A stretch of 64,000 nt of DNA from Oceanobacillus caeni (GTDB lineage: Bacteria; Bacillota; Bacilli; Bacillales; Amphibacillaceae): assembly GCF_019037185.1 (NCBI RefSeq), contig NZ_JAHHXM010000007.1, positions 62,304 through 126,303 on the forward strand. The letters are read 5' to 3'. The position numbers and the translations under genes are program-made. Below are positions 38,405 through 52,092 of the stretch, in pieces. Position 1 is the stretch's first letter. Each line of letters starts with the position of its first letter. Below the pieces are notes generated by a model. That model saw only the letters and a list, made by a program, of their open reading frames with translations. It did no database searches and was not told the DNA's origin.

Positions 38405-38440
38405 AAAAGGAGAAAGCCATTCTTACGGCTTTCTCCTTTT
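38405..38440 (-). terminator. Terminator of the maltodextrin operon
   Basis: A perfect 14-bp stem (AAAAGGAGAAAGCC/GGCTTTCTCCTTTT) with an 8-nt loop overlaps the end of the ROK gene. Confidence 0.85.
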
Positions 38441-39431
38441 ATGCTTCTACTAAATTATCATTCCTTAGTTCCCGCTTCTCAAATCGACTTTTCACAAGAT
38501 AAGCCGCACCAATCATTCCTGCATCATTGTCCAATTGTGCGAGCTTCACTTCACAACATTCACTTACCCTAGGAAGGGCATACTTTTTGAATGCTGCTGT
38601 TATTTTAGCGAGCAGCGGCTCCCCTGCTTTAGAGAGTCCGCCACCAATTATAATCTGACTAGGATTGATCGTAACTGCCATATTTGCCATCGCCTTACCT
38701 AACATATCTGCCATCCGTTCAATAATCCTTTGACTCGCTTCATCTCCGGACGTTGCACAATCAAAAACATCTTTCGCTTCTAACATACCACGTTGGTTAT
38801 AACGGGCAGCGAGTACACCGTGAGGAGCTTCTTTTATATGATCCATGGCCATGTGCACAATTCCCGTTGCCGAAGCTATTGTTTCCAAACATCCCATTCT
38901 TCCGCAATTACAGCGGTATTCGTTTGGCGCAACTAAAATGTGTCCAATTTCACCGGCAGTGCCATTCGTTCCGTTCGAAATCTCTCCATTTGCGATAATT
39001 CCGCCACCAACTCCAGTGCCAAGCGTAATAAATATAAGGTTTTCAGCAGAGTTGCCGCTCCCTTTCCAGTTCTCCGCTAATGCTGCTAAATTAGCATCAT
39101 TTTCTATAAATACAGGTAAACTTGATAATCGGTGAAGTTCTTCTTTCAGATTGAAGTTTTTCCAACCAATATTTACAGCCTCTTCCACGATACCAGTTAC
39201 TGGATGTATAAAGCCTGGAGCGCCCACACCTATTCCTATTATTTTATTTTCTATTTTGTATTTTGATAAGGTATCCGCTATCGATGCCCAAATATCTTTT
39301 ACAATTGTCTTTCCTGCATTATCTTTGTTCGTTGGTATTTTCCACTTAACTAAAAATTCTCCCTTATGATTGATTAAGCCGATTTTTACAGTAGTGCCTC
39401 CAATATCTATGCCTATCATCAACTCATCCAT
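38439..39431 (-). CDS. ROK-family sugar kinase (glucokinase-like)
   Basis: The 330-residue protein begins with the ATP phosphate loop IGIDIGGTTVKIGL. The substrate motif is ENDANLAALAE with the catalytic Asp, then TLGTGVGGGII, EIGHI and the ROK zinc motif CNCGRMGCLE (about 178-187). GlcK-type ROK proteins phosphorylate glucose released from maltodextrins. It ends a leftward ten-gene set. A repressor role is unlikely because no N-terminal helix-turn-helix is present. AAGGAG lies upstream of the ATG. Confidence 0.88.
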   Translation of the reverse strand: MDELMIGIDIGGTTVKIGLINHKGEFLVKWKIPTNKDNAGKTIVKDIWASIADTLSKYKIENKIIGIGVGAPGFIHPVTGIVEEAVNIGWKNFNLKEELHRLSSLPVFIENDANLAALAENWKGSGNSAENLIFITLGTGVGGGIIANGEISNGTNGTAGEIGHILVAPNEYRCNCGRMGCLETIASATGIVHMAMDHIKEAPHGVLAARYNQRGMLEAKDVFDCATSGDEASQRIIERMADMLGKAMANMAVTINPSQIIIGGGLSKAGEPLLAKITAAFKKYALPRVSECCEVKLAQLDNDAGMIGAAYLVKSRFEKRELRNDNLVEA

Positions 39432-39510
39432 TTAGACGTACTCCTTATCATGTAAGTTTAGCGGATTGCTTCCTTATGAGTAGGTTACTCCTGAATGATC
39501 AAACAACATC

Positions 39511-50245: not shown

Positions 50246-50279
50246 AACCCCGATTTCTAACATTACGGAAATCGGGGTT
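50246..50279 (+). promoter_or_regulatory. Leader hairpin before the neopullulanase gene (possible attenuator)
   Basis: AACCCCGATTTC pairs perfectly with GAAATCGGGGTT around a 10-nt loop. TTTCTATTTC follows, then AAGGAG and the ATG at 50305. Without a pure U tract it may be a weak terminator or a stabilising 5' stem. A short reading frame of 18 codons starting at 50203 ends within the hairpin but lacks a ribosome-binding site. Confidence 0.55.
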
Positions 50280-50304
50280 TCTATTTCAGAAAGGAGAAAA
50301 TTAA

Positions 50305-52092
50305 ATGCTAAAAGAAGCAATCTACCACCGTCCAAAGAATAACTTCGCATACGCTTATGATAAGGACACATTACATATCGTACTGCAAACGAAAAAGAAT
50401 GATATGGAGTCTGTTGCACTTCTGTTTGGAGATCCGTATGACTGGAAAGATGAGGTATGGCAAACGCAAACGGTTGAAATGATTAAGTCAGGATCGACCG
50501 CCTTATATGATTATTGGTTTATCGCAGTAAAACCTGAGTTCTACCGGATGCGCTATGGATTTCGTTGCATGGATTCTAGTGAAACATGCTATTACACGGA
50601 GAGTGGTATTTATTCTGATCCTCCAGCAGATATTTCAAATTACTTCTGCTTCCCGTACTTGAATCAAATCGATGTCTTCCAAGCACCAGACTGGGTTAAG
50701 GACACTGTTTGGTATCAAATTTTTCCAGAACGGTTTGGAAACGGGGACCCATCATTAAATCCGAAGGGAACTTTACCATGGGGGTCAGCTGCACCGACTG
50801 CTACAAACTTCTTTGGCGGTGATTTTCAAGGCGTTATCGATCACTTGGATTATCTTGTTGATTTAGGAATTAATGGTATCTATTTCACGCCTATTTTTAA
50901 AGCGTATTCCAATCATAAATATGACACGATTGATTACATGGAAATTGATCCGCAATTTGGGGATAAGGAAACTTTCCGCCGTCTCGTGCGGGAATGTCAT
51001 CAGCGGGGAATTCGTGTCATGCTTGATGCGGTATTTAATCATAGCGGCTATTATTTCCCTCCATTTCAAGATGTACTGGATAAACAAGAGAAATCAGCTT
51101 ATACGGAGTGGTTCCACCTTCGAGAATTCCCTGTAAAACCAGAGCCAGTACCAAATTATCATGCGTTTGGCTTTGCTGGATCCATGCCGAAGCTCAATAC
51201 GGAAAATCAGGAAGTGAAAGCCTACTTACTAAAAGTTGCCCGCTACTGGATCGAGGAATTTGATATCGACGGGTGGCGTTTAGATGTCGCGAATGAAGTC
51301 GATCATCAGTTTTGGAGAGATTTTAGAAAAGAAGTGAAAGCAGTGAAACCGGACGCTTATATATTAGGAGAAATTTGGCATGATTCAATGCCTTGGCTTG
51401 GCGGCGACCAATTCGATGCTGTCATGAATTATCCGTTTACAAATAGTGCAATCGATTTCTTTGCAAAAAATGAGCGATCTCCTGAAGACTTTACGAATTC
51501 CATTACCAATGTATTGCATATGTATCCAGCGAATGTGAATGAAGTTGCATTTAATTTGCTTGATAGCCACGACACACCGCGGATTTTGACATTAGCAGAT
51601 GGCGAGATGGATCGTGTGAAACTTCTATATCTCTTTCAACTTTCTTTCATTGGTACACCTTGTATCTATTATGGGGATGAAATTGGGATGGAAGGCGGTC
51701 AAGATCCGGGTTGCCGCGCATGTATGGTATGGGACGAAACGAAGCAGAATCGAGAGTTGTTTACGTATGTTAAAAATCTGATTGCAATGCGAAAAACAAT
51801 TCCTGCTTTTGGAAATGATGGTACGTTCCAAATCGTTATGTACGATAATGAAACAAATACATTGGTCTATCAAAAGCAAGCAGATAACCGGCGTATCCTT
51901 TTTGTAATAAATAATAGTACGGAGGAACAGACGTTAGGTTTACCAGATTTTCCTGAAAAATATTGTAGCGAACTAGTAGTTGGAACTAGTATAGATACAG
52001 TCTATTCACGAAAGCCGATTCAACTGACAGCGTCAGATAAGATAAAAGTCTCTACTTTAGGATTTCGCATTTTTGAGTATAGTAATGAATAG
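50305..52092 (+). CDS. GH13 neopullulanase / cyclomaltodextrinase / maltogenic amylase
   Basis: The 595-residue intracellular enzyme has an N-terminal CBM34-type domain (about 1-125) followed by the barrel. DAVFNH (241-246), GWRLDVANE with nucleophile D327, GEIWHD with acid/base E356, and LLDSHDTPR with D423 are the four catalytic regions. The N-terminal domain and the [12 protein letters not shown] region are typical of GH13 subfamily 20, which open cyclodextrins and cut maltodextrin or pullulan. AAGGAG precedes the ATG. It is transcribed divergently from the importer operon and supplies the first cut of imported dextrins. Confidence 0.92.

Follow-up and report, generated by a model that had tools for sequence, protein, structure and literature searches.

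Two Gfo/Idh/MocA oxidoreductases and a xylose-isomerase-like protein in a maltodextrin-type operon of Oceanobacillus caeni: a possible oxidise-first route for alpha-glucosides

Background

What role could two Gfo/Idh/MocA oxidoreductases and a xylose-isomerase-like protein have in the middle of an operon otherwise equipped for maltodextrin use? The question is posed by a 64,000-nucleotide (nt) stretch of the Oceanobacillus caeni genome (contig NZ_JAHHXM010000007.1, positions 62,304 to 126,303; hereafter the window, to which all coordinates refer unless a locus is named), which a preliminary description read as maltodextrin uptake joined to an undescribed, Ycj-like handling of unusual or epimeric sugars through 3-keto intermediates. 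Bacillus-type mdx operons hold a maltodextrin binding protein, two permeases, a LacI regulator, an alpha-glucosidase and a neopullulanase, to which B. subtilis adds maltose phosphorylase and beta-phosphoglucomutase. From comparison with related operons and characterised enzymes we lean, with modest confidence, towards the reading that the maltodextrin importer operon and the three additional enzymes, here called GFO1, GFO2 and XI, would together bring about the oxidation, elimination, hydration and reduction of alpha-glucosides.

Results

A conserved cassette

Pfam scans of all eleven proteins of the locus and NCBIfam scans of nine of them confirmed every gene that had been named, and in its place, including the two different Gfo/Idh/MocA proteins and XI between the genes of the LacI-family regulator and the GH13 alpha-glucosidase. 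The cassette consists of the following genes, of which the first two overlap by 4 nt:

43275..44306, minus strand: GFO1, Gfo/Idh/MocA oxidoreductase (PF01408, 122 bits), proposed 3-keto-glucose reductase
42235..43278, minus strand: GFO2, predicted glucoside 3-dehydrogenase of the DgpA/YcjS group (PDB DgpA1, 226 bits; DgpA, 223 bits)
41251..42219, minus strand: XI, xylose-isomerase-like barrel, proposed 2-hydroxy-3-keto-glycal hydratase and possibly lyase too

A scan of genome contigs returned at least 548 relatives of XI, the best 80 of which are all Bacillota by their record titles. Together with 40 loci hand-picked from the matches in genomes of the family these 80 gave 120 loci with flanks; five were left out for having no XI above 400 bits (L053, L063, L075, L078 and L085), and the other 115, the window and L009 (117 in all) were reduced to 107 non-redundant loci by merging identical XI. 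Because the loci were chosen by similarity to the XI or GFO2 of the window, the shares given below do not apply to Bacillota as a whole, and with operons called at gaps of up to 300 nt some importers may have been missed. In 75 of the 107 loci, the window included, one called operon holds GFO1, GFO2 and XI, and since the same genome also holds a second copy their grouping is not due to chance. Intact ThuA lies in the called operon in 91 loci and was found nearby by tblastn in three more (L058, L134 and L153), which makes 94 of 107. The neighbourhood check proposed beforehand thus revealed a conserved Bacillota cassette, and by these counts the conserved unit is ThuA-GFO1-GFO2-XI. It has a real link to alpha-glucosidases, with GH13 present in 17 of the 107 operons, and 53 of the loci have an assignable importer. 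Of 159 genomes of the family, 72 hold relatives of GFO2 (E <= 1e-60), and of 398 genomes sampled from the phylum, 30 hold relatives of XI (E <= 1e-80); the window's own genome is counted in both. Genome G086, whose GFO2 and XI are identical to those of the window, adds no independent evidence.

Ten large neighbours of the cassette, suspected of being GH65 or GH31 enzymes, were also scanned, of which two from Halobacillus are M6 peptidases, the one in L054 is GH31 and the one in L115 is GH32. A five-gene form of the cassette was seen in Listeria (L178, 6182-10781), where a Gfo protein, a short XI-like protein, ThuA, an XI 70% identical to that of the window and another Gfo protein follow each other in one run.

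The three enzymes

Over its full length GFO2 matches DgpA at about 225 bits, against 99 bits for the next solved structure. In a tree of 46 Gfo proteins, which contains no named inositol dehydrogenase, it falls into a clade of 21 rows (support 99/99) with E. coli YcjS, four YcjS-like proteins of Bacillota and the DgpA group, apart from the 13 other included Gfo proteins of its own genome. Its identity with YcjS, annotated as a glucoside 3-dehydrogenase in the E. coli record, is 35.5% over 346 columns, and in four of the 107 loci GFO2 is absent and a YcjS-like protein is present with GFO1. DgpA is itself a glucoside 3-dehydrogenase, in which 3-oxo-glucose takes the hydride back and so recycles NADH (PMC11239390). 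By kinship, GFO2 is thus predicted to be a C3 glycoside dehydrogenase of the YcjS type.

The best solved match of GFO1 is glucose-fructose oxidoreductase (133 bits), followed by DgpA (126 bits); the protein bears the EKP and DxGxHxxD motifs and in the same tree belongs to a separate clade (100/100). We propose that it may act as a 3-keto-glucose reductase, because the four-step scheme leaves this role to it. ThuB, which had also been proposed for comparison, groups with neither of them; the Sinorhizobium meliloti protein joins levoglucosan dehydrogenase (97/95), on a long branch that gives this placement moderate weight. The inositol enzymes IolG and IolE were considered and set aside, scores remaining below the curated cut-offs (XI 37 of 290 bits, GFO1 173 of 355, GFO2 104 of 355).

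By profile and by fold the nearest characterised relative of XI is AtHYD, a 2-hydroxy-3-keto-glucal hydratase. Seven residues (E168, D197, H200, H225, K227, D228 and E290) are invariant across a 28-row alignment of XI and are aligned with the same letters in AtHYD, and we propose that XI may be a 2-hydroxy-3-keto-glucal hydratase and possibly also a lyase. Its fit to DgpC (7drd) is at a generic level. A YcjR-type epimerase was set aside, there being no kinship beyond the general fold, which alone cannot decide. Of the chemistry that had been suggested for the locus, the passage through 3-keto sugars is therefore upheld by the position of GFO2, and the epimerisation of unusual sugars is not, XI being nearest to AtHYD and not to YcjR.

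Loss of ThuA

Pfam detected no ThuA, no DUF1080 protein and no second XI-like protein among the eleven proteins of the locus. In three related operons (L049-L051), which share the importer type of the window and also have DUF1189, ThuA lies between LacI and GFO1, where the window has a short gap:

44307..44393, no strand: 87-nt LacI-GFO1 gap, site of thuA in the relatives L049-L051

An 18-residue frame in this gap resembles the ThuA C-terminus and is a possible relic, but shuffled peptides (76 of 2000) and shuffled gaps (23 of 400) scored as well too often for the resemblance to be significant, and it was set aside. In a tree of concatenated GFO1, GFO2 and XI from the 75 loci, the window, L048 (genome G071) and L056 (G156) form one group, nested among ThuA-bearing relatives, with a Shimodaira-Hasegawa-like approximate likelihood ratio test support of 92 (not starred). 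Parsimony needs three changes of ThuA over this tree and the starred branches force three. The other two are losses in L054 and L076, where remnants lie directly before GFO1 (E 4e-21 and E 2e-5). In genome G059 the L054 remnant is the sole ThuA; outside the operon, ThuA is present once in G078 and twice in both G086 and the window's own genome. In L054 (G059; 4609-6960 and 8008-8211) the cassette belongs to a different importer operon, one that includes a GH31 glycosidase, and ThuA is reduced to its last 68 residues.

Eight more loci, outside the tree of 75, are without ThuA (L120, L123, L124, L127, L135, L143, L148 and L149). Three of these, from Lederbergia and Bacillus (L123, L135 and L143), have in its place upstream of GFO1 a 220-residue protein, a candidate replacement in which Pfam found an alpha/beta-hydrolase fold in the one of the three that was scanned.

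Loss of ThuA was not accompanied by residue changes beyond those in 200 random ThuA-bearing trios, the window clade of three having changed in 2 columns of XI against a mean of 2.1, in 3 of GFO1 against 3.3 and in 3 of GFO2 against 3.1. Because conserved columns are retained about as often as in these trios, the three enzymes seem still to be under selection and in use without ThuA.

The operon around the cassette

The remaining genes of the locus are as follows:

48572..49855, minus strand: maltose/maltodextrin-type substrate-binding lipoprotein (PDB 5tu0, Lmo2125, 552 bits, then 2xd2, 394 bits)
47198..48526, minus strand: ABC permease, MalF-like position (PF00528, 72 bits)
46344..47195, minus strand: ABC permease, MalG-like position (PF00528, 75.5 bits)
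45441..46310, minus strand: DUF1189 membrane protein (PF06691, 32.6 bits, cut-off 28)
44394..45431, minus strand: LacI-family regulator (PF00356, 70 bits; PF13377, 120 bits)
39511..41181, minus strand: GH13 alpha-glucosidase, probably alpha-1,4 (PDB 2ze0, 872 bits; 5zcb, 860 bits; 1uok, 715 bits)
38439..39431, minus strand: ROK-family glucokinase (TIGR00744, 335 bits, cut-off 260)
50305..52092, plus strand: neopullulanase/cyclomaltodextrinase-like GH13, divergent (PF02903, 151 bits; PF00128, 283 bits)

All genes had been placed in one operon, which holds for the minus-strand run from 49855 to 38404 (importer, DUF1189, LacI, GFO1, GFO2, XI, GH13 and ROK, with gaps of at most 87 nt) and fails for the neopullulanase gene, which is divergent on the plus strand; its product scored 344 bits against the NCBIfam cyclomaltodextrinase model, under the cut-off of 540. 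No ABC ATPase was found among the eleven proteins scanned with Pfam. Two features flank the run:

49999..50010 (minus strand) and 50051..50062 (plus strand): two inverted exact GCAAACGATTTC copies, candidate LacI-family operators around the operon promoter, upstream of the binding-protein gene
38404..38441, minus strand: terminator-like hairpin at the operon end, after the ROK gene (17 pairs, 6 G-C, T-rich tail)

With up to one mismatch GCAAACGATTTC occurs three times in the window against 0.59 expected, a number reached in 5 of 100 shuffles. Since the GCAAACGATTTC pair precedes the first gene and a strong hairpin follows the last, the run is likely to be one transcription unit, co-transcription being judged from spacing. 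Promoter-like sites were at chance level (41 found, 37.5 +/- 6 expected) and neither indicate nor rule out a promoter of the cassette's own. Just past the terminator (37879-38256) lies a small gene for a protein of 125 residues, by eye secreted and cupredoxin-like, which is also present in G086 (L047).

The binding protein matches Listeria Lmo2125 better than the maltose/maltodextrin-binding protein 2xd2 among solved structures, and the importer looks to be of the maltodextrin type. For the GH13 enzyme the alpha-glucosidases 2ze0 and 5zcb outscore the oligo-1,6-glucosidase 1uok, and its region DGFRVDAI has after the catalytic Asp the Ala that we take to be typical of alpha-1,4-specific members; it is probably an alpha-1,4-glucosidase. 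The binding protein beside a second cassette on contig 11 has as its top match the maltose-binding protein 9xor (233 bits), and that of L048 has 4hs7 (299 bits) and 2zyk (271 bits), presumably maltose- and cyclodextrin-type binders, at the top and the maltose-binding protein 2gha at 210 bits. Three different cassette-adjoining binding proteins thus have maltose/maltodextrin-type binders at or near the top, Lmo2125 and 4hs7 being assumed here to bind maltose. The L048 cassette is 97% identical to that of the window over the tree columns; because its importer differs and is still of the maltose type, the cassette appears to persist while maltose-type importers are swapped. As a separate observation, comparison of window 46344-49855 with L048 3231-6777 shows another importer beside a nearly identical cassette, LacI, GH13 and kinase, which looks like importer exchange within one operon type.

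Sister cassettes

On contig 11 of the same genome a second, diverged copy comprises a binding protein, permeases, LacI, ThuA, GFO1, GFO2, XI, DUF624 and GH13, its importer and GH13 differing from those of the window. This ThuA scores 138.7 bits with Pfam (cut-off 33.4) and 330 bits against S. meliloti ThuA. Two further 3-keto-type cassettes lie on contig 12 (L014, G000:C12:14000-30000, 3282-10261) and contig 7 (L015, G000:C7:8000-27000, 7299-16854), each with an XI relative 51-52% identical and a levoglucosan-dehydrogenase-like Gfo protein (445 bits against a cut-off of 650, scored on the contig 12 cassette); ThuA is present in the former and not in the latter. Both adjoin xylose isomerase and xylulokinase genes that pass their cut-offs, and possibly constitute a xyloside route. 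The window cassette for its part adjoins the ROK glucokinase gene, and either arrangement would fit the release of free sugar by the cassettes. In a stretch of contig 11 (G000:C11:205000-252000, L010-L012) nine Gfo/Idh/MocA matches and several XI-like ones were seen, by eye perhaps for catabolism of inositol and related sugars.

Discussion

On the reading we favour, GFO2 would oxidise the non-reducing glucosyl unit at C3 by hydride removal, as its clade suggests, and the resulting 3-keto sugar would shed its partner by beta-elimination to give 2-hydroxy-3-keto-glucal. This elimination would fall to ThuA in most cassettes and here to XI itself or to the contig 11 ThuA in trans. XI, from its similarity to AtHYD, would hydrate the glucal to 3-keto-glucose, which could be reduced to glucose by GFO1, or by GFO2 in reverse as in DgpA, and then be phosphorylated by the ROK kinase. 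The net result would be a redox-neutral hydrolysis, of use where the alpha-1,4-glucosidase next to the cassette copes badly with a linkage or an end group. A bolder version, which we find rather doubtful, is that Bacillota of the Oceanobacillus kind have a full non-hydrolytic and redox-neutral route of GFO2, XI and GFO1 for maltose and maltodextrins, with ThuA as the 3-keto-alpha-glucoside lyase or hydrolase that became dispensable after fusion with an alpha-glucosidase operon, XI or the glucosidase doing the cleavage.

Several observations weigh against the favoured reading. The need for the cassette is unexplained beside GH13, because GH13 and glucokinase already make up a complete hydrolytic route, and the alpha-glucoside link is not general, there being no ABC importer within the called operon in 54 and no GH13 in 90 of the 107 loci. 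XI resembles AtHYD remotely, at 18-20% identity; GFO1 has no characterised close relative, its clade holding no characterised member, and the myo-inositol dehydrogenase 3cea (105 bits) is close below its best match. L063 and L075 have ThuA-GFO1-GFO2 without XI. Finally, G071 and G156, which have the ThuA-less operon, yielded no ThuA above the cut-off genome-wide (22.4 and 20.7 bits against 33.4), an absence that is likely, not certain, in drafts about 99% complete; if they are without ThuA, then XI does two jobs or the pathway differs.

The parallel with E. coli ycj would imply that one dehydrogenase oxidises an epimeric alpha-glycoside at C3, that XI inverts a neighbouring centre and that reduction by the other dehydrogenase gives a glucoside for GH13 to cleave. 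In its favour, the parts count of two dehydrogenases and one XI-like enzyme fits, GFO2 is kin to YcjS, and E. coli likewise pairs an importer with such a Gfo/Idh protein and an XI-fold enzyme. However, XI is not close to YcjR, its kinship not rising above the general fold; scans of the locus (eleven proteins with Pfam, nine with NCBIfam) found no YcjQ-type dehydrogenase or disaccharide phosphorylase, YcjQ, YcjT, YcjM and YcjU having no counterpart there; and the usual cassette has ThuA, whereas the annotated ycj cluster has none. We consider such an epimerisation quite unlikely. Salvage, in which 3-keto-maltose or a similar sugar made by other microbes is imported, cut by GH13 or XI and reduced by GFO1 or GFO2, appears unlikely to us as well. 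It would let the enzymes run in their easy direction, LgdA reducing 3-keto-levoglucosan faster than it oxidises levoglucosan (PMC7676230), and GH13 could replace ThuA, since the operon has an alpha-glucosidase in two of the three cases of ThuA loss in the tree of 75 loci (GH13 for the window clade, GH31 for L054). Three loss events are nevertheless too few, intact ThuA is retained in or close to 14 of the 17 GH13-bearing cassette operons, the eight ThuA-less loci outside the tree have no GH13 in their called operons, and the xylose-linked sister cassettes are explained no better than by catabolism.

The substrate might instead be an alpha-glucoside of a cyclitol, glycerol, glycerate or plant aglycone, with the dehydrogenases, as in inositol catabolism, acting on the moiety other than glucose. 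XI has a weak IolE score, GFO1 and GFO2 score with IolG models, and the contig 11 stretch described above is rich in Gfo and XI-like genes; but the scores fall far below the curated cut-offs, and GFO2 groups with YcjS and DgpA, away from the 13 other Gfo proteins included from the genome (in the tree without a named inositol dehydrogenase), which makes this very unlikely in our view.

The closest known systems to the oxidation-elimination-hydration-reduction scheme are the Lgd, Agrobacterium and ThuAB pathways rather than Ycj epimerisation. Rhizobial thuEFGKAB (Ampomah 2013, cited in PMC4765114 and PMC7404187) is reportedly a 3-keto-disaccharide route for alpha-glucosides; the cassette in its usual form likewise has a true ThuA, which the window operon lacks. 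Measured against the Bacillus mdx operon the window has the binding protein, permeases, LacI, alpha-glucosidase and neopullulanase (the last by Pfam only, under the NCBIfam cut-offs); unlike in B. subtilis, maltose phosphorylase and beta-phosphoglucomutase are not among the operon proteins, and the cassette and a glucokinase are found instead. In Lgd of Bacillus smithii, another member of the Bacillota (LgdA-LgdB1-LgdB2-LgdC; PMC7676230), dehydrogenases (LgdC being Gfo/Idh/MocA) and isomerase-like lyase/hydratases are described beside a sugar importer, with net hydrolysis via a 3-keto sugar and LgdB2 suggested to be bifunctional; the substrate differs, and Lgd has two isomerase-like proteins where the window has one. 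The Agrobacterium pathway of AtOGE and AtHYD (PMC10628242) shares the four-step logic and the closest characterised relative of XI, although there the flavoenzyme GlycDH carries out the first oxidation and AtOGE has a preference for beta-glucosides; the window operon contains a single XI-like gene and no separate 3-keto-glycoside lyase. The full-length match of GFO2 to DgpA links it to the C-glycoside route of DgpA/DgpBC (PMC11239390; PDB 7xr9, 9m3d), where the substrate is a polyphenol glycoside; Pfam found no DgpB-like small subunit among the proteins of the window operon. Paenibacillus sp. JDR-2 has a maltose-induced thuAB-like operon with an ABC importer for which transcript data alone led to the suggestion of 3-keto-maltose (PMC4765114), the accessible part of that paper mentioning no GFO2, XI, GH13 or kinase.

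The interpretation given in the preliminary description is supported in part. A literature search from whose reach most subscription papers were excluded brought up no account of this cassette as part of a maltodextrin operon, nor, within the same reach, the phrase 3-keto-maltose anywhere but in PMC4765114, where that intermediate had already been suggested. Levoglucosan breakdown (PMC7676230) and the Agrobacterium glucoside pathway (PMC10628242), on the other hand, already establish the four-step chemistry, and the three enzymes here most likely carry out an oxidise-first splitting of sugars, which is known chemistry in an unusual operon setting. We know of no gene assigned to the alpha-3-ketoglucosidase of Agrobacterium. 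The enzyme was reported in 1970 (title cited in PMC9007349), and too little was known of a 3-ketoglycoside route for maltose for Price and colleagues to include it in their curated pathway tool (PMC9007349); the order in which ThuA and ThuB act is called unsettled in a paper citing rhizobial work (PMC7404187). The gene set described here opens this route for maltose to testing in bacilli from soil and marine habitats, and the natural loss of ThuA with the other enzymes kept offers a handle on the function of ThuA.

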